37,176 nt of DNA from Myxococcota bacterium (GTDB lineage Bacteria > Myxococcota > Kuafuiibacteriia > Kuafuiibacteriales > Kuafuiibacteriaceae): NCBI GenBank assembly GCA_028289325.1, contig JANQQN010000241.1, forward strand, positions 1 through 37,176, given 5' to 3'. Position numbers and translations under genes: made by a program. Below are positions 6,147-35,888 of the stretch, piece after piece (position 1 is the first letter of the stretch; the number at the start of each line of letters is the position of its first letter). The notes beneath the pieces are model-generated. The model was not told the DNA's origin. It did no database searches and saw only the letters and a program-made list of their open reading frames with translations.

Positions 6147-6676
6147 GCGACATCATCGATTCGATGCTACCGGAGACGATCGGGCAGCACGTCCGCAGGT
6201 CTGGAGGCAGCCATTCCAAAGATCTGCACACGGCGCGAGTTCAAGCGTCGGCAAGACGAAAGGACAGCCATGTACAACCGCAGCCGTGCGGTTGGGGCGA
6301 ACATCATCCGAGCGGCTACGCGGTATCGATTCCCGTTGTGAGAAAGAAGATCCATGCGGCCGCGATCAAACAGGCGCGGCGCAGGTGGCGGACCGATGCT
6401 TGATCAACAAAACAAACAAGCTTTCGTACCCCGCCGCGCGCGAGGGTGACCGATTGCTCTCCCGTCAGCAGTGCGACTACGATAGCGATCTCCGTGAAGT
6501 GCGGCGCTAGACCTGAAGGCCTCCACGCCCGACTACGATCGCGGCACGGAATCTCAACCTTGAAATGGGTCGCGGCAGGGCCGCCTATTTTCTCGTATTC
6601 CACGGGGCCGACCGCATGCAGATCGCGACCGCCTCATAGTTGGGTGCACGATGCGGTTCTGAGCTTCGAGGGCAGT
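6147..6676. other. Divergent intergenic region, about 530 bases, no gene recognised
   Basis: This lies between the kinase (leftward) and the DUF4185 operon (rightward). It holds short frames only, none with a domain or a usable start. It includes an A-rich patch (AACAAAACAAACAAG near 6408) and is less GC-rich than its surroundings. Frames on both strands were read for transposase motifs and none were found. Control regions for the two flanking operons are expected here. Confidence 0.5.
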
Positions 6677-7792
6677 GTGAAGTGCTTTCGAGCGTCGCTC
6701 GTCGGCCTTGCCAGCGTCGACCGTCCGAATCCGCGCTCGCAACGGCGCGAATCTGATCGCCGAGGGCTGAGCGTCGGCCTCCTCCTGTTGATCTTCACGA
6801 CCGGGGGCTGCGGACAACAGCCAGGACCGACCGCCGACGCGGAGCGTTGGCCGGCCGCCGACCGACTGTTCGATTCGGACCCGCAGTGGGTCGGCGGCGA
6901 CGGTGCGTACTCCATCGACCTGAAAGATGGCCGAATCCTGTGGCTGTTCGGCGATAGCTTCATCGCCCGAACGCCGTTCTCTCGCGCGGGCGCCGCCTTC
7001 ATCCGGAACAGCGTAGCGATCCAGAGGGGCGCGGACCCCTCGACGGCGGCCATGCGGTTCTTCTGGAATACGGGCGCCGACGACGCGCCGACCTCATTCG
7101 CGGCGGAAAAAGGAGCTTCGTGGCTGTGGCCCGCACACGGGGTGCGGCTCGGTCATCGGCTCTTATTGTTCTACGAGATCATTCGAACCCCGCCTGGACT
7201 CCCCCCCGGCGAAGACAACTTCGAAGGTATCGGCTGGACCGCTTTCGTCATCGACAACGTCGATCGCCCGCCGTCCGACTGGCACCTCGAAGAGGTTCGG
7301 GTTCCGGCCACCGGGCGATACCTTCTCGGCGAGGCGTTGCTCATCGAACCCCCGTGGCTGTACGCGTACGGGTCCGACGACGACCTGCACCCCGTAGTCC
7401 TCGCCCGCTGGCCGCTCGACGAAGTCATGGCCAAAGACCTGTCTTCGCTCGAGTGGTGGTGCGGCCAACGATGGTGTACCGAACGACCGGCCGAGCTCAT
7501 CGGGCTAGGCGCACCCGAATTGTCCGTCCACCACGACGTCGACCGCGGCCGATACCTCATGGTGCAGTCGTCGGGGGTGGGTCCGACCACGCTGTCGATC
7601 CGATCTGCGCCCCGCCCCGAGGGGCCGTGGTCCAACGCGCGCGATCTCCTCCGGCCTCCCGAGTCGTTCGACCCCGATGCCTTCGTGTATGCCGGCAAGG
7701 CGCACCCCACCCTCATCGGCGCCGACCTCGTCGCCACCTACGTCGACAGCGAACGATACTTTCCTTCTTTCGTTCGAATATGCTTTCCATGA
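6677..7792 (+). CDS. DUF4185-like beta-propeller lipoprotein
   Basis: 371 residues from GTG 6677, which has GAGGG just upstream. The open frame runs further up, but nothing there looks coding. The hydrophobic segment 'VGLLLLIFTTGGC' puts the lipidated Cys at about residue 45; the polar stretch before it is long, so the true start may be later. Residues 71-95 contain 'WVGGDGAYSIDL' and 'LWLFGDSF', the signature I associate with DUF4185 proteins, related to five-bladed glycosidase-like propellers. Later 'RYLMVQSS', 'PRPEGPWS' and 'AHPTL' match the blade motifs. The role is likely glycan or ligand binding at the surface; hydrolase activity is not shown. It overlaps the next gene by ATGA. A paralog follows at 8687. 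Confidence 0.75.
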   Translation: MKCFRASLVGLASVDRPNPRSQRRESDRRGLSVGLLLLIFTTGGCGQQPGPTADAERWPAADRLFDSDPQWVGGDGAYSIDLKDGRILWLFGDSFIARTPFSRAGAAFIRNSVAIQRGADPSTAAMRFFWNTGADDAPTSFAAEKGASWLWPAHGVRLGHRLLLFYEIIRTPPGLPPGEDNFEGIGWTAFVIDNVDRPPSDWHLEEVRVPATGRYLLGEALLIEPPWLYAYGSDDDLHPVVLARWPLDEVMAKDLSSLEWWCGQRWCTERPAELIGLGAPELSVHHDVDRGRYLMVQSSGVGPTTLSIRSAPRPEGPWSNARDLLRPPESFDPDAFVYAGKAHPTLIGADLVATYVDSERYFPSFVRICFP

Positions 7793-8700
7793 GCAGCCCG
7801 ATCACCGCCGCTCTTCTCGGGCTCGGGTTGGCCGCATCGCCCGTCCCCACCCCGCGCGAGACGTCAACCACGCGGTGGATCTCGGGGGGCACCCGGGCCA
7901 TCGCCCCGTCGTACGCCGCATCCCGTGACGCACCGTTGGTAGAGTACGCCTACGGTCCGCGGGCCCAGCTGTCGCTCGGCGGTGAGCTGGGCCTGGTCAC
8001 CATCGAACACTCGGACCGAACGTTCCGATTTGGTGGCTCTGTTCTTTTTGCATTCGAGAACGCGCGTTCGTCGAAGCCCGCGCCTACCGAGGTGTGGCGT
8101 TTCGTGGCCGCCTTGACCACGAGCGTCGATTTTCGGGGTTTTGCATCGACCCTGTTCGGCCCCGGGAGCCACCTCGAGCTGGCGCTGTCGCTCGGTCGAG
8201 CCGAAGCTCCCGCGCGCGACGAGCCCGTCGATCCGATCCAGCCAAGCGACATCCCGTTCGGCGGCGGGGGCTGGTATCTCGAGCCCGGGATCGCCTTGCG
8301 CACACCCTTGACGCTTACCTGGACCTTCGAAGCGCGCATCGCCCACCGCATGTTCACCAACGCCTTCGTCAGCCTGGTCGGGGCCTCGGACGCGGCGGAT
8401 ATCGTCGCGAGTGGGCTCGGCGAAGGACTGGCCCACGCACCCCATCTCGATGTGACCCTGCGCTGGAAGGTGCGGTCCGGGATCGAGCCGTACGTCGCGG
8501 CCTACGGCGGCTACTTGGACCCGCACGACGATAGCGCCGACGCCGGTTACTTCTTCCGAGCGCTGCTCGGGCTCGGCCTTCGGGGGGAGGGCGGCCTTGT
8601 CGCGCCCTTCGTCAGCCTGGACGCCGGCAACGGGCAGGGATTGCTGATCAACCGCAGAGAGCTGCGGTTATCGGTGGGCATCCGCTATGCGTGGCGGTGA
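7789..8700 (+). CDS. Predicted outer-membrane beta-barrel protein
   Basis: 303 residues. The start ATG overlaps the stop of the upstream gene (ATGA, 7789-7792); an in-frame ATG at 7780 is the alternative. A signal peptide ends near 'GLAASP'. The rest is a series of amphipathic strands with Gly and aromatic residues ('VEYAYGPRAQLSLGGELGLV', 'GGGGWYLEPGIAL', 'YVAAYGGYLD'), closing with 'RLSVGIRYAWR'. That is typical of small outer-membrane barrels, although the last residue is Arg rather than Phe. No named family recognised. It is sandwiched between two paralogous lipoproteins with overlapping reading frames, so it probably forms an envelope complex with them, perhaps as their outer-membrane anchor or channel. 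Confidence 0.7.
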   Translation: MSSPITAALLGLGLAASPVPTPRETSTTRWISGGTRAIAPSYAASRDAPLVEYAYGPRAQLSLGGELGLVTIEHSDRTFRFGGSVLFAFENARSSKPAPTEVWRFVAALTTSVDFRGFASTLFGPGSHLELALSLGRAEAPARDEPVDPIQPSDIPFGGGGWYLEPGIALRTPLTLTWTFEARIAHRMFTNAFVSLVGASDAADIVASGLGEGLAHAPHLDVTLRWKVRSGIEPYVAAYGGYLDPHDDSADAGYFFRALLGLGLRGEGGLVAPFVSLDAGNGQGLLINRRELRLSVGIRYAWR

Positions 8701-9712
8701 CGTCAAAGGGTGGTGGGCGGTCATCGGGATGACCGCCATCAGCGCGTGCGCTTGGCCTCTGGAAGACGAGGCGCCGCGCCTCGACCTCGATCCGCCCCCG
8801 CTCGCCGGAGGATGTGGATTGGCCACCCGCGACGGGGCCGTGCTGCACGGCGTCGTGCGAAGCCTCGCGAACGGCGACCAGACGACCTGGACTGCGGCCT
8901 CGGACGAGACTGGACGTCGAGACCTGCTGATGACCGGGGCGCCGGGCCCGACGTGTGAAAGTACGCTCGACGCCGCCGACGCGCCTCTCGTCGCCGCATC
9001 GAGCACCGTGGCCCGAGCCGCACTCGACTTCGCGATCATCGATGGCGGGGCGATCGCGTACTTCGTCGAAGGCCCGCCGGATCCCGTCTTCGGCGTCCGG
9101 CCGGAAGCGCTGGGCGTTGCGTACGGCGAAGACCTGACGAGTCTCACTCCGTTCGCCGAACGCCTATGGACCGCGGACCGTCCCCCGTACGGGACCAGCG
9201 TCGTCGTCGACGAGACCTACGTCTATGCGTTCGGGTGCTTGGCGGCCCGATTCCTGGACGCCGACTGCTACGCGGCGCGCGTCGAGAAGAGCCAAGTCGG
9301 TCGCCGTAGCGCGTACACGTACTGGGCGGGCAGCGAGCGCTGGGTCGCCGATCCGGACCGCGCGTTTCCGGTGGTCACCGGCGGCACGCATATCAGCGTG
9401 GTCTACCATCCGGGCCGTGCCCGGTACATCATGGCCTACAGCCAACCGCTCGCCGACCGAATCGTCCTTCGCGTCGGCTTCGGTCCCGTGGGCCCTTGGT
9501 CCGCGCCGTTCGAGATCGGGCGCTGCGAACCACCGGCCGACGATCCCGACGCGTTCTGCACCGGGGTAGAGCTCCACCCCAGCGTCGTCCAAGACGACGA
9601 CCGCATCGCGGTCACTTACGCGCTGGGATCGTTTTCTGACCAGGCGATCAGCAACCCCGCCGCGTACCGAACTCGGCTGGCGGTCGTATCGTTGCCGGCC
9701 GAACTCCCTTGA
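8687..9712 (+). CDS. Second DUF4185-like lipoprotein, paralog of the first
   Basis: 341 residues. The ATG lies 14 bases inside the end of the barrel gene. Lipobox I-S-A-C with lipidated Cys21. The C-terminal half matches the gene at 6677 block by block: 'RARYIMAYSQ' against 'RGRYLMVQSS', 'GPVGPWS' against 'RPEGPWS', 'DDPDAFC' against 'FDPDAFV', and 'ELHPSV' against 'KAHPTL'. The N-terminal half is more divergent and lacks the 'LWLFGD' signature, so it may bind a different ligand. It has more Cys residues than its paralog, which may form disulfides. Co-expression with the barrel and the first paralog is implied by the overlaps. Confidence 0.7.
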   Translation: MRGGDVKGWWAVIGMTAISACAWPLEDEAPRLDLDPPPLAGGCGLATRDGAVLHGVVRSLANGDQTTWTAASDETGRRDLLMTGAPGPTCESTLDAADAPLVAASSTVARAALDFAIIDGGAIAYFVEGPPDPVFGVRPEALGVAYGEDLTSLTPFAERLWTADRPPYGTSVVVDETYVYAFGCLAARFLDADCYAARVEKSQVGRRSAYTYWAGSERWVADPDRAFPVVTGGTHISVVYHPGRARYIMAYSQPLADRIVLRVGFGPVGPWSAPFEIGRCEPPADDPDAFCTGVELHPSVVQDDDRIAVTYALGSFSDQAISNPAAYRTRLAVVSLPAELP

Positions 9713-25278: not shown

Positions 25279-26433
25279 TCACGTCGGGCTGAGGGCGTTT
25301 GGTCGCGCGCGCGAACGCACTCGGTCAAGCAGGCTGTGCAGCAACTCGACCTGGCGGGCGGTGGGCGACGCCTGCGAACCGAACTTCTGCGCCTCTATCG
25401 GAGGTTCGGCCAGGTTGGCCGGCCCGAACGGGTCGAACGGAATAGCGTCGTAGGGCTCCGCGGCGGAGACTGGCGCCTCGACGGGACGGACCATGGGCTC
25501 GTCCTCCAGGTCTTCGGACAGCGGCGCATTCGCGGGCCGGCTGCGCGGGACGTCGAGGTCTCGGGGCGGGTCGGCAGCCTCGGCGGTCGGTTCGTCGCCG
25601 GCGGGGTCCAGCGGAGCAACAGGGACCGCGACCGGAACCGGGGTGGGCGCCTCCGGCACCTGAACCACCGGCATCGGGATCGCCTGCTCGGGCGGTGGAC
25701 CGACCTCGGTCTGCTCGAGATCTTCGTCATCGACCTCCTCCCGCAAGTCGTAGGCCCACGGCATCGACCGGGAGGGCGCCTCGGGCACCGGCGCCCGGGT
25801 GACCGGGGGCGCGGGGGGCTGACTGGTCGATGAGGCAGGCCGGGGTGTCGTAGGCGCCGCCGGCTCGGCGAGGCCCCGCGCGCGCGCCTCAGCGAGGGCC
25901 CGCGCCCGCGCGATGGCTTCCTGGCGGGCGGGATCCGCGGCGCGACCCGGAATCTGAGACCGCGCGCGAACCTCGGCGCTGCGGCGAGCGCGCTGTACCG
26001 CTTCCTGCCGAGAGGCCTCGTTCGTCCCGTTGGGTGCCCCGGGGGTGGCCAGATCTGCCGTCGCGCGAGCGAGATCCGGGCGCCCGGACGCCTCGGCTTG
26101 CTGGCGCAGCCTTCCCGCCACTTCGAGCGCGAGATCCCGCAGGCGCTGATTGCCCGGGTCTTTGGCGAGGGCGGCCCGCAGAAGCTTCAAGCCTTCGACC
26201 AGGCGCCCGGCCTGGATGTACGCGTGGGCGTACCGCAACGGCTCGGCCTGAATGCGGGCCTGGGCTTCTTCGCGCTGCTTGACGAGGTGTTCGACCTGCT
26301 GGATGCGGTTGCGAAGCTGGGCGTCGTTGGGTCGATAGCGCAGAAGCGTGGACAGCGTTTGGTGCGCAGAGCGCAGGTCGCCGCGGCGAAGCTGCTCCAG
26401 CGCGTGCTGCTCCAGAACCTCCTGCTTGTCCAC
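25279..26433 (-). CDS. TPR protein with proline-rich disordered tail
   Basis: 384 residues from GTG 26433. The N-terminal 130 residues are TPR-like helices ('LEQLRRGDLRSAHQTLSTLL', 'AHAYIQAGRLVEGLKLLRAA'). Next is an internal repeat of the pattern 'RQEA..RAR..AE.RAR' (two copies, about 141-188). A roughly 170-residue Pro/Ala/Val/Glu-rich stretch follows with 'MPVVQVPEAPTPVPVAVPV'. The C-terminus returns to a helix, 'TARQVELLHSLLDRVRSRAR'. No signal peptide or membrane span, so it is probably cytoplasmic. It is likely an adaptor or scaffold with a flexible linker between two interaction ends. Not assigned to a named family. Confidence 0.8.
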   Translation of the reverse strand: MDKQEVLEQHALEQLRRGDLRSAHQTLSTLLRYRPNDAQLRNRIQQVEHLVKQREEAQARIQAEPLRYAHAYIQAGRLVEGLKLLRAALAKDPGNQRLRDLALEVAGRLRQQAEASGRPDLARATADLATPGAPNGTNEASRQEAVQRARRSAEVRARSQIPGRAADPARQEAIARARALAEARARGLAEPAAPTTPRPASSTSQPPAPPVTRAPVPEAPSRSMPWAYDLREEVDDEDLEQTEVGPPPEQAIPMPVVQVPEAPTPVPVAVPVAPLDPAGDEPTAEAADPPRDLDVPRSRPANAPLSEDLEDEPMVRPVEAPVSAAEPYDAIPFDPFGPANLAEPPIEAQKFGSQASPTARQVELLHSLLDRVRSRARPNALSPT

Positions 26434-26471
26434 GGTTTGATGCGGATACGATCAAGCCATCCGCAACACAA
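26434..26471 (-). promoter_or_regulatory. Possible internal promoter before the TPR gene
   Basis: TTGTGT (26471-26466), 17 bases, TATCCG (26448-26443), nine bases, then GTG 26433. It would start transcription inside the 3' end of the methyltransferase gene. Matches are moderate only. Confidence 0.25.
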
Positions 26472-27417
26472 GCGTCTTCAGATAGTCGCCCCGATCCAAT
26501 CCATCGGTGTCGGGGCCGGCAGGATGATCCCACGCCGGCAAACCGAGCTCAACCATCAGTTCGGCCGCCCGACCCTGCCCGTCCGCGGCGTCCTCGATAG
26601 CCCGCAGGAGCCGGTCGGTGGTCAACCCACGAGCATGGGTTGAAAAAACCAGCACCCCCGATGGCGCGAGTTTACGCATCGCCCCGCCCAACAGCGCTTG
26701 AAGCTGCTTCGTCAGGCTGAACGTCTTTCCGTAGGCGCGCCCCATGACCGGGGGATCGAGGATGACCAAGCCGTATTGGCCCGACGGCCCACGGCGCAGA
26801 TGAGCCATCACATCGTCGGCGAACCACCGGTGCTCATCGGGGGCGAGACCGCTCGCCGCCATGTTGGCCCGCCCCCAGCGAAGGGCCCGTTTCGACGCAT
26901 CGACGCTGGTCACCCGCTTCGCGCCCGCCAGCGCCGCGTGCACCGAAAATGCCCCGGTGTACGCGAACAGGTTAAGAACTTCGACCCCCGCCGCCCACTG
27001 CCGGATCCGCTGACGGGTGTCGCGGTGGTCGAGGAACAGTCCGGTCTGCAGACCGTCGTTCAGCCGGCATTCGAAGGTCGCGTCGCCTTCCCGAATCAGC
27101 ATCGGATCTTGGACCCCGGCCCCGTGAATGACTTGGCTCGTCGCGTCCGAGGCTCGAGGGGCCACCGTCTTCTTCACCACCGCCGCCGGCGCCCACCTCC
27201 GCACGCAGGCATCGACCCAGGCTGCGACGACCTCGAAGGGCACCGTCGAGCGAGCGGCGACGATGATGTGGTCGCGATAACCATCGATCACCAGCCCCGG
27301 GGGCGCGCCGTCACCCGTCCCGTTCACCCATCGAAACGCATCCAGGGGGCGCACGGGCGGCGCTTGCGCCTGTCGGCGCTGAACAGCGCGCGCGAGACAC
27401 TCGTCGGGCGAAGACAC
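26452..27417 (-). CDS. RlmI-like class I rRNA methyltransferase
   Basis: 321 residues from GTG 27417, with AAGGTG upstream. Motif I region 'VLNLFAYTGAFSVHAALAGA', then 'VTSVDASKRALRWGRANMAA', and the catalytic-type 'VILDPPVMGRAYGKTFSL'. The N-terminal part carries 'GLVIDGYRDHIIV' and the 'DGLQTGLFLDHRDTR' block shared with RlmI/RlmK-like enzymes, but no N-terminal PUA domain as in E. coli RlmI. The 'LDPPVMGR' form resembles the PF10672-type proteins rather than 'DPPAFAK'. It is predicted to methylate rRNA; the position is unknown. It lies nine bases downstream of the met-zincin gene, so co-transcription is likely. Confidence 0.85.
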   Translation of the reverse strand: MSSPDECLARAVQRRQAQAPPVRPLDAFRWVNGTGDGAPPGLVIDGYRDHIIVAARSTVPFEVVAAWVDACVRRWAPAAVVKKTVAPRASDATSQVIHGAGVQDPMLIREGDATFECRLNDGLQTGLFLDHRDTRQRIRQWAAGVEVLNLFAYTGAFSVHAALAGAKRVTSVDASKRALRWGRANMAASGLAPDEHRWFADDVMAHLRRGPSGQYGLVILDPPVMGRAYGKTFSLTKQLQALLGGAMRKLAPSGVLVFSTHARGLTTDRLLRAIEDAADGQGRAAELMVELGLPAWDHPAGPDTDGLDRGDYLKTLVLRMA

Positions 27418-27426
27418 CCCGTCACC

Positions 27427-30400
27427 TTACTGCGGGCTGGGCACCTCGGCGATGCGATTGAATTTGCGGACCTGATCGATGTAACCGACCCGCTCGTTGA
27501 GCGCGGAGCGGGCGAGCTCGTAGGCCCGGCACGCGTCGGCCTGGGTCGCCCATCGGTTGCCGTCCTCGGTGAGCGGTCCCACCGCCGTCCCTTCTTCGCA
27601 GCCGGCCCTCGCCGGTTCGTACGCCTCGGCCACGAACGCGTTCGCCGCGTCGAGCAGATTGGCCCCCACCCCCCAGTTCCGATACTGGGGCGGGTCCTGG
27701 TTCTGATGCCACCGGTCGCCGTAATACGCCGGAAAGTCCTGCAAGAAGCCCGTCTCGGACACGGGGGGAATGACCGGGGCTCGATAGGTGATCAGCGTTT
27801 CGGGGTCGGTAAAGGTGGTGATGGTCATGTCGGGCGGGTACTCGACGTCTTCCGGAGTGCCCAAGATGGAAATCTTCGTGAATCGATACATCTCCGGCGC
27901 GTAGTCTTGGACCGACGACCAGTTGCCGAGGCTGTAGGCCAGCGCCTGGTACTGTAGGGTCCAGCTCCACGACGGCTCGATCTCCGGGAACTGGGTGAGC
28001 CACTCGCGCACCGACGAACCGTCTTCTCGCGCCTCGTCGAACAGGGGCATGTACCGAACGTAGCGTTCCTGGGTCGTGGGGTCGGTCACCACGTGGGAGC
28101 GATAGCCGGTGTGGTCACCCTCGATGAGCGACGCGAACCGCTGCAGCATGGGGTCGAGATACACCCGCAGGTATCCCAACGAGAACGACCGTCGATCGAA
28201 TACGTCACTGAAGTCCCGCACGAATCGCCCTGACGACGTGGTCATCTGCTGAATGACAGCCAGCTTGTCGTAATAGAACCCGATGACGTTCGGCTCGTAA
28301 AAGTAGTCGTCGCTCCAGAAGCTCTCCAGATAGTAGCCGCCGCCGAACCCGAGAGGGACGTCGTACGGCTGCGCGCAGGCCCCTTCCCCCGCATATCTCC
28401 GATAGATGTTGGCATCGATATCGAGACAATACCGCCCTGGCTCGGGAGCCTGAAGCACCCGCTCCAAGAAGTTCACCCCCCGGTACGCGGCTTCCGCCCA
28501 GTCTTCGTAGAGATCGGCCTCGAACGCCGACCGACGAGTAAACAGGTAGTACCGGAACATGTTGGTCATGTGGAACAGTCGCCGACCCTGGAGCCGAGAG
28601 ACGTACTGTCTCGGGTCTCCCCAGGTGTCTTTGAGCCGGTCCCGCCGAAAGTGATTGAACACGTAGTCGCGGTCGAAGCGATTGATGTGGTTCTGGATGG
28701 CCTCTTCGAAATCCCAGCCCGTGTCGAAGCGCTGGCAGAACGGATTCGCGAAGTCGGCGTACAGATCCGAGCAGTACGCGTGTCTGACCGGATATTGGTA
28801 ACTGGACCAGTCGAAGCCCTTGTCGTCGACGATCCCGTCGCCGTCGGAGTCCACGCCGTCGGCCGACTCATCGATCCCCGTCGACAGGTCGTCGTATTCC
28901 GGTAAGGACAGCAATACATCGCGTTGCTGGCGAACGAGGAAGTCGGTGGACACGAACTTCCGGGCCCCGTTCAGGTTCCTCGGCCTCGGCTCCAGTTGCT
29001 TGATCTGGGCCAATAGCCAGTTGACGTCGTCGAAGAAGATCGAGCATCCGCTCGCCCCGTTGCGTTGGGACGAGCTTTCGAAGCGGGCTACGAACTGGCG
29101 GTACAGGTCGTCCATGGCCGAATCGCAGGAGGGGTTGCCGTCGTACCCTCCGGCGCAGGCCGCCTGATCCACGGCCGGCTGGGAGAGGATCCGGGGCATG
29201 TGCTCGGGGCCCATCCACTGCAACACCGAAGGGAGCCCCCAAAAACTGTCGCTGTGTCCGCACCGGCGGGCGAAGGTCCCGTACTTTCGAGGGTCGGGGA
29301 TGGACACCGCCTCCCCGTCCCAGACTTCCTGAATCTGTCCGTACTGAAAGCGAATCGCCGCTTCGTCGTACGTCCCGATCCCGTGAAACCCGTTGAGAGG
29401 CACGTCGAAGGCGTAGTCCATGACCGACGCGTACTTGAACTCGTTGCCTCGGGTCTTGTTCTGCTCGCTGGGCGGGTCGGCCCAGTGCTGGACGGCGGTC
29501 TCCGCGCCGCACTCGGTCGCCCCTTCCGGACACGACCACCAAAAGTCCGGTTTGTAGTTGAGCGGGTCCATCGAGGACTCGAAGTTGTGGCGAAGGCCGA
29601 CGGTGTGGCCAACCTCGTGGGCACCGACGGCCTTGAACATCTCTTCGCGCACGAGGGCGAAGATGTCTTCTCGCGACCAGCCCTTGACCGCCTCCGCGAG
29701 CCCCGACGAGTTGGGATCGAAGAAGTCGGCCATATCCACGGCGTTGCGACCCAGCTCGTACGCCGACCGGAGGAATTCGTTGGAATCCGGGGTGGTGCCC
29801 CAATTGACGACCGACGCCGCCTCGAACGCTTCGGGGCTCACTTGGCCGGGGGCCAGGTCGACCAAGCCCTGGCTCGGATCCAGACCGGGTGGGGAGATGG
29901 CCCCGAAGGGCTGAAAGAGCGTAGGGCCCGCGAACCCTCGGAGCATCTCTTCGGTGACCAGGTACTCCCGTTCGATGTCCGTGCCTCGCCACATCTCGGC
30001 GAATCGGCGCTCCTGTCCCCCGATGGGAGCGTCGTCGAACAGAGGGCCGCCATTTTGGGCGATGAGGCGGTCCTCGTGGCTCATCAGCAGGCCTCGGACC
30101 TGGGACCGGATTCCGTTGTTCTGCATCGTGCGCCGAGACACGATCTCCCGCCGAGTGATGTCGCCCCGGAACAGCTCTTCTTCGTCGAGGTCTCCGTTGA
30201 GCCACTGCAGAACGTCGACCTCTCGCTGGGCGATCTGATCCCCGGCGTTGCCGAAGTAGTTCGCGATGTTCCCACCGATGAACTCGCCGGTCTCCGGATC
30301 TTGAGCGAACTGCGCGATCCCCAGGGGCCCCTGAATGTTCTCATCGATGTAATTCAGGAAGTTGTATCGAAGATCGCCCAGCCGTTGCCAGGTAAACGCG

Positions 30401-31929
30401 AGCTCGACCCCGTCTCGCTCCGCGATCTTCGGGTCGAGGGTCTTGCCCTGCTGAAGCTCGGCGAACTGTACCGCCGCGCAGACCTGCTCGACGTTCCCTT
30501 TCGCCACCCGTCCGGTGTCGGCCACCACTCGCGCTACGACGTCGGACAGCCCGTTAGCCTCCGCGTAGGCGGTGATGCCGGCCGGATTGCAGTCGTTGAC
30601 CGCGAACTGGAACATGCCGCCTCCGACCTCGGATCGCACGCGTTCAACGCTGGACAACAATTGCGAACGACGGACGCCAGTCCCGCTCTGCAGCGCGTCC
30701 TCGTGGTACTTCAACATCGCTACCGTCTCGTCGAACGGTATCGACCACGATTCGGCCATCTCGGTCGCGCTGTCCACCAGGTCCTCGGGGAAGGTCGTGT
30801 TGCCGTAGAAGACGATCGGCTCCGCCTCGCGGCCCGCGTAGGGGATCCGTTCGGAGCCCGCGAAGGAGTCTCGCCACAGGTCGTACCGCCCGGCCAGGTA
30901 GATGCGGCCGGTCCGGGTAAGGAACCGCTCGCGGTCGAACGCGACGCGGAGGGTCCGGAAGTTGCCGTACGCCCCGTCGTAATCCCAGGTTTGAATCGTG
31001 CACTCGCTCGGGTCCCGAGCGCCCTCACACGGCCGCCCCTCGAAGTTGAGGACGATCGCGCGGCCGTCGTCATCCTTCAGTTCAACGACGTCGGGATAAT
31101 ACAACGACTCGTAGTCGTCGTCGGGGTCGATCCGCTGAAACGACAGGCGCACCTTCGCGTTCGCGGCCCCGCATCGCCCCGCGCCCTGCGCGAGCTGCAT
31201 CATCAAGCAGATGTACTCCGACGGTTCCAGGCTATAGACGTTCGTGACGTCGAAGTAGTCCTCGGTGAAGAACGGGCGGTCGGGATTCGTCTCTTCGTTG
31301 CCCTGGACGTAGAACTTCACCGCCGCCTGACCGCTGAGCGTTCCGCTTGGATAGTTGTTGAAGCCGATGGTGAACGCGGTGTTCTGGCGGACCAGGTTCT
31401 CGGACCAGTCGACACGAAAGTATCGTCGCTCGTTCCACGGCCGATCGGTGGTGTTCTCGGAGATGACGTTGGTTTCGACCCCGGTGGTTCGGTTGTACTC
31501 CCTTTGAATGTCGAAGTGGCTCTCGATCGGAAAAGCCGCGACCGGGGCGCCGAAGAAGTCTTCGCCTTCCTCGGTCAAGCCCTCCGCGTAGGGCAGAAAC
31601 TCGAAGGAGCGATAGGCGATCAGCAGGTCTTCGGTGATCTCCCAGCGGATCTTCTCCGTCGTCGACACCACACCTTCGAACACCGTCGAGACCCCGAAGA
31701 AGCCGACGTACTGGGGGCTGTCGGGGTCCGCCTCCACCACCGTCGCGCGATGATACCATAGGCCCGAGAACATCTCTTTGGGCAGCGCGTTGGGCTGCGT
31801 GCGGTCGATACTGCGAACCTCCACCGAACACCCCGCGGCCACTACGACAACGAGCAACGAGACCACACCGACCGAGGACGAAGCCTTCGAAAGTAGCATT
31901 GACACGATCGCTTTCATCGAGGACCTCAT
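27427..31929 (-). CDS. Giant lipoprotein zinc metalloprotease (met-zincin), copy 1
   Basis: 1500 residues from ATG 31929, which overlaps the stop of copy 2 (ATGA). The N-terminal signal segment ends VAAGC, so it is probably a lipoprotein. The active site 'HEVGHTVGLRH' places zinc ligands at His771, His775 and His781 and the general base at Glu772. The Met-turn is 'ASVMDY' with Met837. Together these define a metzincin of the DUF5117/DUF4953-like type. The N-terminal 150 residues match copy 2 ('FPIESHFDIQREY', 'ISENTTDRPWNERRYFRVD'). Near residue 1025 is a calcium-loop-like 'DSDGDGIVDD'. It probably cleaves proteins or peptidoglycan-linked peptides at the cell surface; the substrate is unknown. 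Confidence 0.88.
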   Translation of the reverse strand: MRSSMKAIVSMLLSKASSSVGVVSLLVVVVAAGCSVEVRSIDRTQPNALPKEMFSGLWYHRATVVEADPDSPQYVGFFGVSTVFEGVVSTTEKIRWEITEDLLIAYRSFEFLPYAEGLTEEGEDFFGAPVAAFPIESHFDIQREYNRTTGVETNVISENTTDRPWNERRYFRVDWSENLVRQNTAFTIGFNNYPSGTLSGQAAVKFYVQGNEETNPDRPFFTEDYFDVTNVYSLEPSEYICLMMQLAQGAGRCGAANAKVRLSFQRIDPDDDYESLYYPDVVELKDDDGRAIVLNFEGRPCEGARDPSECTIQTWDYDGAYGNFRTLRVAFDRERFLTRTGRIYLAGRYDLWRDSFAGSERIPYAGREAEPIVFYGNTTFPEDLVDSATEMAESWSIPFDETVAMLKYHEDALQSGTGVRRSQLLSSVERVRSEVGGGMFQFAVNDCNPAGITAYAEANGLSDVVARVVADTGRVAKGNVEQVCAAVQFAELQQGKTLDPKIAERDGVELAFTWQRLGDLRYNFLNYIDENIQGPLGIAQFAQDPETGEFIGGNIANYFGNAGDQIAQREVDVLQWLNGDLDEEELFRGDITRREIVSRRTMQNNGIRSQVRGLLMSHEDRLIAQNGGPLFDDAPIGGQERRFAEMWRGTDIEREYLVTEEMLRGFAGPTLFQPFGAISPPGLDPSQGLVDLAPGQVSPEAFEAASVVNWGTTPDSNEFLRSAYELGRNAVDMADFFDPNSSGLAEAVKGWSREDIFALVREEMFKAVGAHEVGHTVGLRHNFESSMDPLNYKPDFWWSCPEGATECGAETAVQHWADPPSEQNKTRGNEFKYASVMDYAFDVPLNGFHGIGTYDEAAIRFQYGQIQEVWDGEAVSIPDPRKYGTFARRCGHSDSFWGLPSVLQWMGPEHMPRILSQPAVDQAACAGGYDGNPSCDSAMDDLYRQFVARFESSSQRNGASGCSIFFDDVNWLLAQIKQLEPRPRNLNGARKFVSTDFLVRQQRDVLLSLPEYDDLSTGIDESADGVDSDGDGIVDDKGFDWSSYQYPVRHAYCSDLYADFANPFCQRFDTGWDFEEAIQNHINRFDRDYVFNHFRRDRLKDTWGDPRQYVSRLQGRRLFHMTNMFRYYLFTRRSAFEADLYEDWAEAAYRGVNFLERVLQAPEPGRYCLDIDANIYRRYAGEGACAQPYDVPLGFGGGYYLESFWSDDYFYEPNVIGFYYDKLAVIQQMTTSSGRFVRDFSDVFDRRSFSLGYLRVYLDPMLQRFASLIEGDHTGYRSHVVTDPTTQERYVRYMPLFDEAREDGSSVREWLTQFPEIEPSWSWTLQYQALAYSLGNWSSVQDYAPEMYRFTKISILGTPEDVEYPPDMTITTFTDPETLITYRAPVIPPVSETGFLQDFPAYYGDRWHQNQDPPQYRNWGVGANLLDAANAFVAEAYEPARAGCEEGTAVGPLTEDGNRWATQADACRAYELARSALNERVGYIDQVRKFNRIAEVPSPQ

Positions 31930-34900
31930 CGGTTGTGGTAGACGCGGTAAAGATCGCGTGCGTACTCGAGCAGCTCCACCCGGCCGCGCCAATAGTCCTT
32001 GAAGTCAGGATTCGAGTCTGACGCCTCGTACTCCAGGCGCGCTTGCTCCGCGCTTTCGATCATCTGACAACCCATGCTGGCCTCGGCCGGTGACCGCTGG
32101 ACGCTGCGGTACTCGACGCCGACGAGCGTATCGACCATCGCGCAGTAGCAGTCTTCGCCGTCGGCGGCGACCGTACAGCTGGGCAAGCTCGCCCAGTCTT
32201 CAAAGTCGTCGTCGGCCCCGCGCACGAACACCTTGAGCTCTTTGCCCATGTCGACCTGCGCGTCGAAGTCCGAGGAAAACAGGGCGTGGGCGTAATACAT
32301 CGCGCTGAAGGGAATGTTGGCGAGGATGGTCGGGTACAGCACGGAAGGTTGGGTACAGGTGGCGCTGGCCCCCGGGAACGGCTCGAGGGTGTCGAGATCG
32401 ATCATCCGCCGGGGCTCGAAGTATCCGAGATGAGGTAACCCCGGCGCATCCGGCGACCGACACCAAAACGATCCCAGCTCGTCGGCGGTCTGCGACCGGA
32501 TGAAGAAGCTGTCGTAGCTCATGACCCGGCCGAAGAACTCTCGCAGCTCGGGTTCGAATAGCCGGTATTGGCTGACGTACTTGTTACGAAGGTCGAGATC
32601 GTAGTTGAACCGAAGCAGCCGGGGCCGGGTCGTTCCCAGCCGGCGCAACAGCGCTTCCTTGTCGAAGAACGAGCCCACGAACGCCCAGTCGTAGTCTTCG
32701 TAGTCTTCGGTGAAGCCCAGCGACGCCGGTCGACCGTCGCCGAGTCCGAGTTCGATCATCCCTCGCGTCGTCGCGTAGCTGCTGTCGATGGGGGCGTAAT
32801 CGTCGCAGTCATTCAGGTTGGCGGACGGCAGATAGCGGCTGGGGTTCGACGTCCACTGGCACATTCGACCCGGCTCCGGGGTGGCCATGACCTCGGTGGC
32901 CAGATTGAGGCTGTGCCCGAGCACCGCGGCCATGTCGTCACGCAGAAAGGACGACGCGAACGGGTCGCGAGGGTCGCTCTGAGCGTGAACGGTCATGATG
33001 TAAAAGTATTGGGCCACGACGTCGCTGAAGTCGCCCACGAACGCGAGGGGGGCGAGCGCGGAATTGGGGTCCCAGGCGCTGGGAACGATGCGATCGCGGA
33101 CGAAGTTGTTGAAGAAGAAGTAGTCCTGCCACATCGACTTGTAGTTCATGAAAACCTCGGTCAACGACGCGCCGAAGTCTCGGGTCGCGCAGAACGGGGT
33201 CATCCGGTCGAATCTGTTGTCGCAGAACAGGTACGGCACCTCGTTCGGCGGTGGGTTCTGAGGATCGAACGTGACCCACCGGCGATCGCCGATCACCGCT
33301 CGCGCCTCCTCGGGGCTGGCGCACGTCCCGCCGCATAGATGATTGGGCAAGGTTCGGTAGTCGTTGAGGTATCGCCACGACCGAAGGGCCTCTCCTCCCG
33401 CCGCCTGCACGGCCGGGCTGTCGAACACCTCGACCTGCTGTCCATACGCGAATCGGATCGCGGCCTGGTCGTACCGCCCCAGAAAGTCCGCGAACAGACC
33501 TTTGCTCGACAGATACTCCATGACCGTCGAGTGCCTCTCCTCGTCGACTTGAGACTGGATGCGCCGCTGATCGTAGACCGCGCGAACGGTGGGGTCGCTG
33601 CAGTCGGGGACGTCCACCCCGTCGACGCAGGAGTTGTTCCAGAACTTCAGGCTGTAATTGAGCGCGTCGAACGATCCCTCGAAGTTATGGGTGAGGCCCA
33701 CGTCGTGTCCGACTTCGTGCAGGAACACGTGGGCGAGCAATCGGTTGGCGATGATCTCGTAGCGGGCGGCCGGTTCGACGTCGCGCAGGTTGAAGGCCAG
33801 GCCCGCCCAGTGCGGGTCGAAGTCGGCCTCGACGAAGCACAGCCCCGCGTCGCCGAATGCCGCGCGGGCCCGCTCCAGGTGGGCGGAAAACGGGCTCTGC
33901 TCCGATGCTCGACCCCATGGTGCGGCTCGGTCCCACAGCTCGTCGGTAACCGCCATCCCCGGTCGCCACTGTCCGAACCCGGCCAGGGCGAGGTCGAACT
34001 CGGTGACCAGCTGTTCTTCGGCGCGGGTTCCTTTCACGCGCTCCATACGATTCTTCAAATGGTCGGGGTTGCGCAGCTCCACGAGCTTGTCGTCTCGACT
34101 GACGCCCAGACTGGCGATCCGAGCGTCGAGCCGATCCGCGAGCTTGGCTCCGCTGCCGCCACCAGCCTGAAGCTCCTGGCGTCGTCGGGCGAGGGTCGCC
34201 TCGATGTGCTGTCGGATCTGTTGGCCGTAAACGACATCGGTGGTGGTTTGCTCGTCGTTGATCAGGGCGATGTAGTCGTTCACCCGGGACGCCTGCAGCT
34301 CGTAATAGTGTCCTCGAACGTACGCGGTCCCGGAGATCACTTCCCCCGTCCGAGCGTCCGCGTTCGAGATCCCCAGGCCGCCCCAACCGCTGGCCTGCGG
34401 GTTGTTGAGAAACATCAGCATGTTGTGGCGAAGGTCCCCCAACCGCTGCCACTCGAACCGCGACTTCCCGGTGTCCGGATCCCGGGTGGCGGCCTCGAGC
34501 GAAGTGCACACCCTCTTGAGATTTCCGATGCCGACGTGCTCGCCCATGTTTTCGAGAGTGACCGCGCACGCTTCCCCTTCGGCGCACACCGCTCGCTCGA
34601 CGGCGAAGAACAGGTCGGGCTCTTCGCTCACGAAGTCGATCACGTTCTGCTCGTTGCAGTCGTTGACCCGCAGCTGGAACATGGCCGGGATGGCGTCGGT
34701 CGTGGTTCCCATCAGGTCGGCCACCATCGACGAGAAGACCCGGTTGTACTCGGCGGCGGTCGTCTCCGCCGCCGCCATCCATCGCATCGGATACTCGACG
34801 TTCAGGTACCAGGTCATGGGCTTCGGCGTTCGCTCGGCGTACGGGAGGGGCATACCGGTCGCCGGGTCCGTCGAGCGCTCCCACAGGTCGTAGAGGCGGG

Positions 34901-35888
34901 CTCGAAACAGGCGCCCGCTCTCCGTGTAGCCGTAGCCACGGTCGTAGGTCGGCAACTCCAACCGAAAGAAGCCGAACCGTCCGTAGATGTTCTCGCGCAC
35001 CACTTCCCCGGTCTCGGGATCGAAGACCGTTTGACCGTCTTCGTCGGTCTGAACGACCGCGTCGGGATAGTCACGAGGGAGAAAGTCGGACGCCTCGGTG
35101 ATGCGCAGGAAGCTGTGCCGAACCTTGGCTTCCCCGAAACCGCAGTTGCCGACCCCGGCCAGGCTGAACCCCACGAACGCGGCGCACGTGAACACGTCGC
35201 TGCCGATCATCACGTTGTCGGTAATCTCGACGTAGTCGCTCGAGAATCGGGACGCGAAGGGGTCGGTGGGGCGAGTGTCGAGGTTGCTCCAGTAGCTGCC
35301 CGTGGATAGCAGGCGAATGGGGAACCAGGTCAGCGCATAGTCGCCGTACAGCGTGTTGTCCTCGATCAGGTTGCTGGAGAAATCCACGCGCATGTACCGT
35401 CGGTCGTACCAGGGGCGGTCCGCGGTGTTCTCATCGATGACGTTGGTGACTCGATTCGTCAGCGAGTCGTACCCTCGCTGGATGTCGAAGTGGGACTCGA
35501 TGGGCCATGCGGCGACGACCGGTCCTTTGTAGAACGTGTTTCCTTCGAAGGTTTGGGTGCCGGCGCCGGGGATACTCTCGTCGGCCTTGTACGCCAGGAG
35601 CACGTTTTCCTGAATCTCGAACCGGATCCGCTCGACGGTCCAGTCGCCGAGGCCTTCGATCGCGTAGGCGTTGGTGGTTTCTGCTTCGACGAGGGTGCGG
35701 CGGTAGTACCACTCGTCATCGGCGGCGAAGATCGCCTTATCGACGAATCCGGGTTGGACGAGGTTGATGTCGTCATTCCGCGGCGCACAGGCCGGCCCGA
35801 CGACCCCCGCCAGCAGCGCGATGACCGCTCCCGTGGGCACCGCGGCCTTCACCACCGGGTAGGTCGTCGTCGTCGAAAGATGAGTCAT
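31926..35888 (-). CDS. Giant lipoprotein zinc metalloprotease (met-zincin), copy 2
   Basis: 1320 residues from ATG 35888; the frame continues upstream but has no start with support, and a TATACT box lies 11 bases before this ATG. The signal segment ends GPAC, a non-standard lipobox. The zinc motif is 'HEVGHDVGLTH' with His724, Glu725, His728 and His734, and the Met-turn is 'STVMEY' with Met790, so the site looks catalytically complete. N-terminal blocks 'WPIESHFDIQRGY' and 'IDENTADRPWYDRRYMRVD' are shared with copy 1. Several Cys residues in the C-terminal half suggest disulfides. It is the first gene of the leftward run and divergent from the CBM9-like lipoprotein. Confidence 0.88.
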   Translation of the reverse strand: MTHLSTTTTYPVVKAAVPTGAVIALLAGVVGPACAPRNDDINLVQPGFVDKAIFAADDEWYYRRTLVEAETTNAYAIEGLGDWTVERIRFEIQENVLLAYKADESIPGAGTQTFEGNTFYKGPVVAAWPIESHFDIQRGYDSLTNRVTNVIDENTADRPWYDRRYMRVDFSSNLIEDNTLYGDYALTWFPIRLLSTGSYWSNLDTRPTDPFASRFSSDYVEITDNVMIGSDVFTCAAFVGFSLAGVGNCGFGEAKVRHSFLRITEASDFLPRDYPDAVVQTDEDGQTVFDPETGEVVRENIYGRFGFFRLELPTYDRGYGYTESGRLFRARLYDLWERSTDPATGMPLPYAERTPKPMTWYLNVEYPMRWMAAAETTAAEYNRVFSSMVADLMGTTTDAIPAMFQLRVNDCNEQNVIDFVSEEPDLFFAVERAVCAEGEACAVTLENMGEHVGIGNLKRVCTSLEAATRDPDTGKSRFEWQRLGDLRHNMLMFLNNPQASGWGGLGISNADARTGEVISGTAYVRGHYYELQASRVNDYIALINDEQTTTDVVYGQQIRQHIEATLARRRQELQAGGGSGAKLADRLDARIASLGVSRDDKLVELRNPDHLKNRMERVKGTRAEEQLVTEFDLALAGFGQWRPGMAVTDELWDRAAPWGRASEQSPFSAHLERARAAFGDAGLCFVEADFDPHWAGLAFNLRDVEPAARYEIIANRLLAHVFLHEVGHDVGLTHNFEGSFDALNYSLKFWNNSCVDGVDVPDCSDPTVRAVYDQRRIQSQVDEERHSTVMEYLSSKGLFADFLGRYDQAAIRFAYGQQVEVFDSPAVQAAGGEALRSWRYLNDYRTLPNHLCGGTCASPEEARAVIGDRRWVTFDPQNPPPNEVPYLFCDNRFDRMTPFCATRDFGASLTEVFMNYKSMWQDYFFFNNFVRDRIVPSAWDPNSALAPLAFVGDFSDVVAQYFYIMTVHAQSDPRDPFASSFLRDDMAAVLGHSLNLATEVMATPEPGRMCQWTSNPSRYLPSANLNDCDDYAPIDSSYATTRGMIELGLGDGRPASLGFTEDYEDYDWAFVGSFFDKEALLRRLGTTRPRLLRFNYDLDLRNKYVSQYRLFEPELREFFGRVMSYDSFFIRSQTADELGSFWCRSPDAPGLPHLGYFEPRRMIDLDTLEPFPGASATCTQPSVLYPTILANIPFSAMYYAHALFSSDFDAQVDMGKELKVFVRGADDDFEDWASLPSCTVAADGEDCYCAMVDTLVGVEYRSVQRSPAEASMGCQMIESAEQARLEYEASDSNPDFKDYWRGRVELLEYARDLYRVYHNR

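Follow-up and report, generated by a model that had tools for sequence, protein, structure and literature searches.

The stretch of Myxococcota DNA considered here (assembly GCA_028289325.1, contig JANQQN010000241.1, positions 1 to 37,176; hereafter the window, meaning the whole 37,176 nucleotides analysed) carries on its minus strand two adjacent genes for very large predicted zinc proteases, the first of which we call U (31926-35888, 1320 residues) and the second D (27427-31929, 1500 residues). An earlier, sequence-only reading of this DNA had picked out these tandem open reading frames (ORFs) as its copy 2 and copy 1, respectively, with the same coordinates and lengths, and had proposed that they form a heteromeric surface protease. 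The pair is genuine and ancient and goes beyond a mere tandem duplicate, and its inheritance in many uncultured bacteria together with the gene for a putative outer-membrane channel suggests an undescribed cell-surface system.

Two giant met-zincin lipoproteins

Both proteins possess the complete HExxHxxGxxH zinc site and the Met-turn that had been claimed for them: HEVGHDVGLTH of U at 33687-33719, with the methionine of its Met-turn at 33519-33521, and HEVGHTVGLRH of D at 29587-29619, with the Met-turn SVMDY at 29413-29427 (all on the minus strand, positions computed from the translations). Each begins with a predicted signal peptide, that of U (35787-35888) ending in the atypical lipobox VGPAC and that of D (31828-31929) in the ordinary lipobox VAAGC. 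A lipobox with its cysteine is present in D and in most relatives; the U of the window has the cysteine in an atypical lipobox, unlike most U relatives, whose lipobox is ordinary (calls are unreliable for U of locus L052, D of L055, and for L065, L066, L068, L070 and L073). Aligned with each other, U and D are 31% identical across 918 columns (E 7e-86) and match again in a separate C-terminal segment of 253 columns (E 6e-12), and by these alignments are paralogues along most of their length. The homology that the sequence-only reading had seen in shared N-terminal blocks is thus present, and its extent is wider. An acidic stretch of D, DSDGDGIVDD (28822-28851, minus strand), resembles a calcium-binding repeat and lies within an insert that is absent from U (alignment, by eye).

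As to the family assignment, a search with PF16313, proposed earlier as a check, places both proteins above the cut-off of 24.2 bits (D at 34.1, U at 30.2), by way of a short stretch around the zinc site: the best stretches cover only 26 and 29 residues, for a profile of 316 positions, and up to approximately 95 in relatives. TIGR03952, with an equivalog cut-off of 208.1 bits, scores D at 10.9 bits, below that cut-off, and was not returned for U, and PF17148 (DUF5117) is not among the families returned for the pair at a maximum E of 10, in a search whose HMMER filters drop most weak matches. The zinc site, the Met-turn and the lipoprotein signal are common to U, D and the families PF16313 (DUF4953, met-zincin) and TIGR03952 (BF0631-type zinc metalloproteinase lipoprotein), from which U and D differ in being far larger, arranged in tandem, and paired with a barrel gene. 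Searches of Pfam, NCBIfam and PDB sequences pointed to no function beyond that of a met-zincin, the best solved relatives of the zincin sequence profile being high choriolytic enzymes and astacin (E 0.0013-0.07), over approximately 70 residues. In titles and the opening parts of abstracts, few of them from subscription journals, we found nothing on DUF4953 or PF16313 by name and nothing that we recognised as the system described below.

The structure was modelled for a relative of D from locus L051 (1166 residues, 32% identical to D of the window), with a predicted local distance difference test score (pLDDT) of 82.6 and a predicted template modelling score of 0.85, the HExxH motif sitting where a helix ends, within blocks whose pLDDT exceeds 90. 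Judging by this model, the large regions flanking the protease core would be folded protein and not disorder. Foldseek found no match for it in PDB at E 0.001 or better, and its best VIA-align match, the met-zincin fragilysin, has a Z of 5.5, within the range of common arrangements. The absence of a PDB match is not proof of a new fold; an enzyme of this size without a confident solved structural relative here makes a target for structure determination.

At the junction of the two genes (31914-31935, minus strand), the TGA of U is part of a 4-nt ATGA overlap (31926-31929), which had been taken for a sign of coupled synthesis. The four bases are there; the coupling is unsupported. The ATG within ATGA has no Shine-Dalgarno sequence as judged by script, and the ATG at 31917 is preceded by GAGG at 6 nt, so D probably starts at 31917, 8 nt past the U stop, giving 1496 residues. 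In the 19 U-D pairs introduced below, a -4 overlap is possible with ATG in 4 and with GTG in 2 more, and in five of these six the downstream ATG has the better Shine-Dalgarno sequence (the exception is L052). The D starts with a Shine-Dalgarno sequence lie within approximately 65 nt of the U stop in these pairs, and ATGs are found 20 and 10 nt past it in L055 and L058, respectively. ATGA as a conserved coupling device was rejected, as it is not kept across the 19 pairs; the tight spacing is kept, and from this spacing we infer co-transcription.

When the genome of the window (8.9 Mb in 587 contigs, 92% complete) is searched with D, this pair is the sole match. PF16313 finds two further matches besides the pair, both at contig ends (L004/L075 on G000:C162 and L005/L076 on G000:C61), whose scores of 108.6 and 85.5 bits are far above those of the pair; these are either classical DUF4953 proteins or contamination.

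Age and upkeep of the pair

D has a match in 35 of the 58 genomes searched from the phylum. The tree built from 59 homologues (ORFs above 900 residues, with loci L069, L075 and L076 set aside) places the first genes of 19 loci in one clade and their second genes, together with L062, in another, both with a support of 100 in the Shimodaira-Hasegawa-like approximate likelihood ratio test; L062 has D only, its U partner being lost to the contig end. The 19 pairs and L062 represent 13 family codes (f1, f2, f10, f14-f22 and f24), and the nearest relatives of both the U and the D of the window come from the window's own family (L037). A larger FastTree tree of 151 rows (ORFs picked by profile score, longer than 850 residues and scoring above 90 bits, with L079, L082 and L083 removed as duplicates of fetched genomes) returns a U clade of 20 rows with a support of 100 and a D clade of 21 rows with a support of 96. 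U precedes D in every one of the 20 pairs, which represent at least 13 families of the phylum, and the recurrence of this gene order over 19 loci and 13 families is not chance. The sequence-only reading had asked whether the duplication predates the genus, and with clades that span 13 families it is ancient; a recent, genus-level duplication was rejected, U and D being reciprocal supported clades.

The trees of the two genes also match. Over 20 pairs the distance matrices of U and D correlate with r 0.931, and 10 of 17 splits are shared, against a maximum of 3 in 1000 label shuffles. The three histidines, the glutamate and the methionine are kept in 151 of 151 homologues, with only the motif glycine lost in two first genes, a count to be taken with caution, as named loci were found partly by the active-site pattern and ORFs of the first set were picked by the zinc or the N-terminal motif. 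That one copy is a dead pseudo-enzyme was rejected for the 151 rows seen. Based on the kept active-site residues, the two clades and the congruent trees, U and D are apparently two active, long-diverged and co-inherited enzymes, and the duplicated, diverged pair of the sequence-only reading stands. An old duplication that has been kept together fits the U-D pair being a functional unit, and a putative U-D heteromer is a reasonable idea, so that the earlier interpretation is, overall, partly supported.

Two further types of old tandem pair, in each of which the first genes and the second genes fall into clades of their own, are represented by 11 pairs (L101, L105, L111-L115, L124, L125, L127 and L132) and by 3 pairs (L091, L108 and L118), several of these loci having a barrel gene upstream. 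By their placement in the tree, these are repeated evolution of fixed pairs.

A beta-barrel family beside the zincins

Clustering of neighbouring ORFs brought up one gene family that is close to zincins in 27 loci, and no other cluster of the first set occurs in more than 5 loci, i.e., there is no different conserved third partner among these neighbours. The family is composed of secreted proteins with a beta-barrel of approximately 300 residues at the C-terminal end. Many of them have a long N-terminal extension, charged or rich in proline and alanine, which is absent in L051 and L058 and variable elsewhere (by eye). One of them (L048, 217-1842) has an N-terminal stretch that looks like LysM by eye, a possible tether to peptidoglycan. 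Pfam searches with the 27 barrels gave stray single-member matches only, the best being BBP2_2 at E 0.014, with none at E 0.01 or better in the barrels scanned, and the barrel sequence profile has no match in PDB at E up to 1. An AlphaFold2 model of one of the proteins is a barrel, with a mean pLDDT of 79.8; the nearest solved folds are CymA (Z 14.3), OmpG (13.6), COG4313 (13.3) and FapF (13.3), and the first solved match by Foldseek is FapF (E 2e-5). This putative outer-membrane partner is new: it is absent from the sequence-only reading, in the window's own genome it lies outside the window, and it is a more interesting fact than the heteromer idea.

The barrel gene adjoins the pair in 18 of 20 U-D loci (L095 counted, L062 not), in 17 of them directly upstream of U and in one directly downstream of D; the exceptions are the window and L037, which belong to one family. 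At zincin loci of the first set, it is present in 29 of 38. Counted over whole genomes, the first 58 divide as follows: 35 carry both families, none has the zincin only, one (G048) has a marginal barrel only (E 0.0086), and 22 have neither. The barrel profile was built from these genomes, hence the count was repeated on 154 of the phylum's genomes, some of them shared with the first count, where, at a zincin E below 1e-30, 55 have both, 2 the zincin only (G058, with 250 contigs and 85% completeness, and G128, with 1260 contigs and 97% completeness), none the barrel only, and 97 neither. Of the zincin-positive genomes new to the barrel profile, 25 of 27 have the barrel, and, among the matches listed, which give zincin positions for 20 of these 25, barrel and zincin are near each other on one contig in 18 (by eye; on the other strand in G147). 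In G072 and G096, both of family f26, the barrel and zincin matches listed are on different contigs, so the barrel was unlinked outside the window's family too.

The trees of barrels and zincins agree as well, with distances of barrels correlating with those of U at r 0.889 and with those of D at r 0.875 (19 loci; of the 20 pairs compared, L037 has no barrel in this set, and the unlinked barrel L162 stands in for that of the window). Over 47 loci with barrels above 60 bits, including loci with a solo zincin, the correlation between barrel and first zincin is r 0.671, against a permuted maximum of 0.167 in 2000. In G023, which has two of each, the barrels and their zincins are both far apart.

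The module is not limited to one phylum. In a scan of named genomes, the best 80 of 175 matches belong mostly to uncultured Myxococcota and Deltaproteobacteria records, and also among the matches listed are Bdellovibrionota, Aeromonas australiensis, A. diversa, Ferrimonas kyonanensis and Vibrio. In the bdellovibrionotal and gammaproteobacterial loci, a barrel-sized ORF usually precedes the zincin, and in 10 of 23 it scores 28-48 bits against the barrel profile. Comparison by hhalign of 17 such ORFs with the 27 barrels gives a probability of 99.3 (E 2e-20), and of 15 of these zincins with 19 of the others a probability of 100 over 817 columns. By these profile comparisons, the module reaches Bdellovibrionota and Gammaproteobacteria, and, because related barrels precede related zincins there, the unit of barrel and zincin probably arose before the duplication that gave U and D. 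Two kinds of unusual records were met with. One is L115, a record titled as a metagenome-assembled genome of Klebsiella pneumoniae, whose barrel-zincin-zincin locus is like those of Myxococcales records and which is probably mislabelled. The other is L128, L130 and L131 (rumen and UBP6 records), in which a giant zincin of approximately 1780 residues directly follows a barrel-like ORF (by eye) that has an extension rich in alanine, proline and glutamate and no match to the barrel profile.

Possible roles at the outer membrane

The combination of a lipoprotein anchor, a channel and two active proteases, maintained side by side in evolution, points to a shared task in the outer membrane, and it is quite probable that U and D work as a unit with the barrel. 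The reading that we prefer, and to which we would give an even chance, is that U and D are intact, anciently duplicated outer-membrane lipoproteases that form one unit with the barrel and serve in surface digestion and peptide uptake. The three genes would make up a single gene run in most U-D lineages, the barrel being unlinked in the window's family; the two enzymes, probably located at the surface and putatively in a physical complex, would cut extracellular proteins with their diverged substrate clefts, and the barrel would pass the resulting peptides into the periplasm. The direction of transport is the more tentative part, proposed by analogy. Channels of the KdgM, NanC and CymA type pass oligosaccharides made by partner enzymes, and uptake is favoured because these small channels of the same fold import oligomers. 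The barrel model is similar in fold to CymA, OmpG, KdgM, NanC and COG4313 (Z 11.8-14.3), the difference being that the barrel family is linked to proteases, not to carbohydrate enzymes.

Multiple observations weigh against this reading. As to the zincins, the first tree contains 21 tandem loci, and two of them, L040 and L064, are not U-D pairs. As to the fold, the matches of the barrel are generic, with 8-10% identity and with CymA, OmpG, COG4313 and FapF tied. As to co-occurrence, the threshold of 1e-30 was chosen post hoc, at a gap between 3.5e-13 and 3.3e-45, and only 4 zincin and 14 barrel candidates were scored per genome; at a zincin E of 1e-5, 84 of the 154 genomes are positive, and 55 of them have the barrel. 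The 27 genomes with weak zincin matches (3.5e-13 to 3e-6) and no barrel perhaps carry other zincins. As to linkage, the barrel is present at only 19 of 54 non-duplicate named loci (L078-L134), with 8 of the other 35 beginning less than 1 kb from a contig end, and at only 10 of 23 loci among L135-L157, so that a strong tendency to be neighbours is confined to the U-D type. In the window's genome the barrel gene is on another contig (G000:C209:17967-18983), the genome of L037 likewise has one away from the pair (G003:C24), and no barrel match was found anywhere in the genomes of L114 and L122. As to the trees, congruence also follows from plain vertical inheritance, and in G029 the two barrels are at the 6th distance percentile and their zincins at the 39th. 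The many zincins with no barrel nearby, the two genomes with none at all and the distances in G029 speak against a tight one-to-one partnership.

Some of these points are tempered by the genomes themselves. Of 24 genomes with a zincin locus lacking an adjacent barrel, 22 hold a barrel elsewhere, which offsets the weaker adjacency outside the U-D type (the 24 derive from the 35 barrel-less named loci, less the 8 at contig ends and L128, L130 and L131; two of the 22, G167 and G174, are probably G039 and G012 again, with matches at identical places). In a tree of barrels above 60 bits (stretches of at least 180 residues), the barrels of the window's family and one of the two from G002 group together (support 99), inside a larger cluster (support 86) that also includes seven barrels from pair loci and three more, and as the unlinked barrels cluster near those of pairs, the barrel was probably separated from the pair once in this family. 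The same evidence bears on a reading with no joint function, in which independent secreted proteases were left in tandem and the barrel is a frequent, unrelated neighbour. Tandem duplication is indeed repeated in the zincin family, both in the two further old pair types and in L064, L089, L090 and L107, where the two copies are each other's nearest relatives, and in the window's family, as at many other loci, barrel and zincin genes are unlinked. Set against this are the U-D order fixed over 13 families, the congruent trees and the near-complete co-occurrence of the barrel even where it is unlinked, and we consider this explanation improbable.

The main rival to peptide uptake is export: the barrel would serve specifically to bring the lipoproteases to the surface, as Slam does for TbpB-like surface lipoproteins or FapF for amyloid subunits. 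We judge it doubtful in itself, and yet nearly as plausible as uptake. Slam combines an N-terminal TPR domain with a 14-strand DUF560 barrel, and in 185 of 353 cases its gene has a lipobox gene as a neighbour (PMC5449769). The barrel gene likewise often adjoins its would-be cargo, across phyla and also where the zincin is solo, an outer-membrane barrel gene beside a lipoprotein gene being the likeness to Slam. FapF is Foldseek's best solved match for the barrel, and many barrels have the long charged or Pro/Ala-rich N-terminal extension. Arguing against export, no Slam-type Pfam match (DUF560, TPR) was found in the 27 barrels at E up to 0.1, with the last ~345 residues scanned and the part upstream viewed by eye; L051 and L058 have no such extension; the fold scores of CymA and OmpG are as good as that of FapF; and cargo of mostly 1200-1700 residues with many conserved cysteines would be a hard load for a small barrel.

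FapF provides a second precedent, as it is also linked to a protease, and thus a barrel and a protease can form an export system. FapF is a trimer with an N-terminal coiled coil and a plug, and FapD is a periplasmic cysteine protease whose activity is required for secretion of FapC through FapF (PMC5557850). The 12-strand barrel of FapF is similar to the barrel model at a Z tied with those of other small barrels; in addition to the low identity, the extension of our family is not conserved, and by eye the barrels show no periplasmic coiled coil of the FapF type. On this precedent the zincins would be turned towards the periplasm, where they would mature or gate either the barrel or a cargo that passes through it. 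Outer-membrane lipoproteins do face the periplasm by default, and the requirement for FapD activity is in line with such a role. Unlike what processing of a cargo would call for, no conserved cargo gene is found beside the modules by the neighbour clustering of the first set, and giant active proteases would likely be hazardous in the periplasm; we regard periplasmic processing as improbable.

Returning to surface digestion and uptake, it is possible, though held with some reserve, that a dedicated channel, together with a giant surface met-zincin or a pair of them, makes up an undescribed, deeply conserved outer-membrane machine for feeding on or processing extracellular protein. Such a machine would span from Gammaproteobacteria to the phylum of the window, its protease repeatedly duplicated into lasting pairs of active, non-interchangeable enzymes. 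An isolated pair of giant enzymes thus becomes a defined and testable system of a protease and a channel family co-occurring over several phyla, among them in a culturable Ferrimonas, F. kyonanensis DSM 18153, which has a barrel-zincin locus (L148). The system could account for the way in which bacteria that feed on protein link digestion at the surface to uptake, or, alternatively, could reveal a new route for placing lipoproteins on the surface.

Scans of the window for Rfam families (gathering level) and tRNA were empty. Downstream of the pair, both loci of family f1 have kept genes for an RlmI-like methyltransferase (PF10672) and for a TPR protein (window 25279-27417, minus strand; L037 16578-19685). 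Genes for ABC transporter ATPases are near two zincin loci (L066 10126-10845, in orientated coordinates, and L125 5922-6716; by eye) and are not general. On the plus strand of the window, two nearby ORFs (6446-7792 and 8687-9712) both match PF13810 (DUF4185) above the cut-off, a second possible local duplication.

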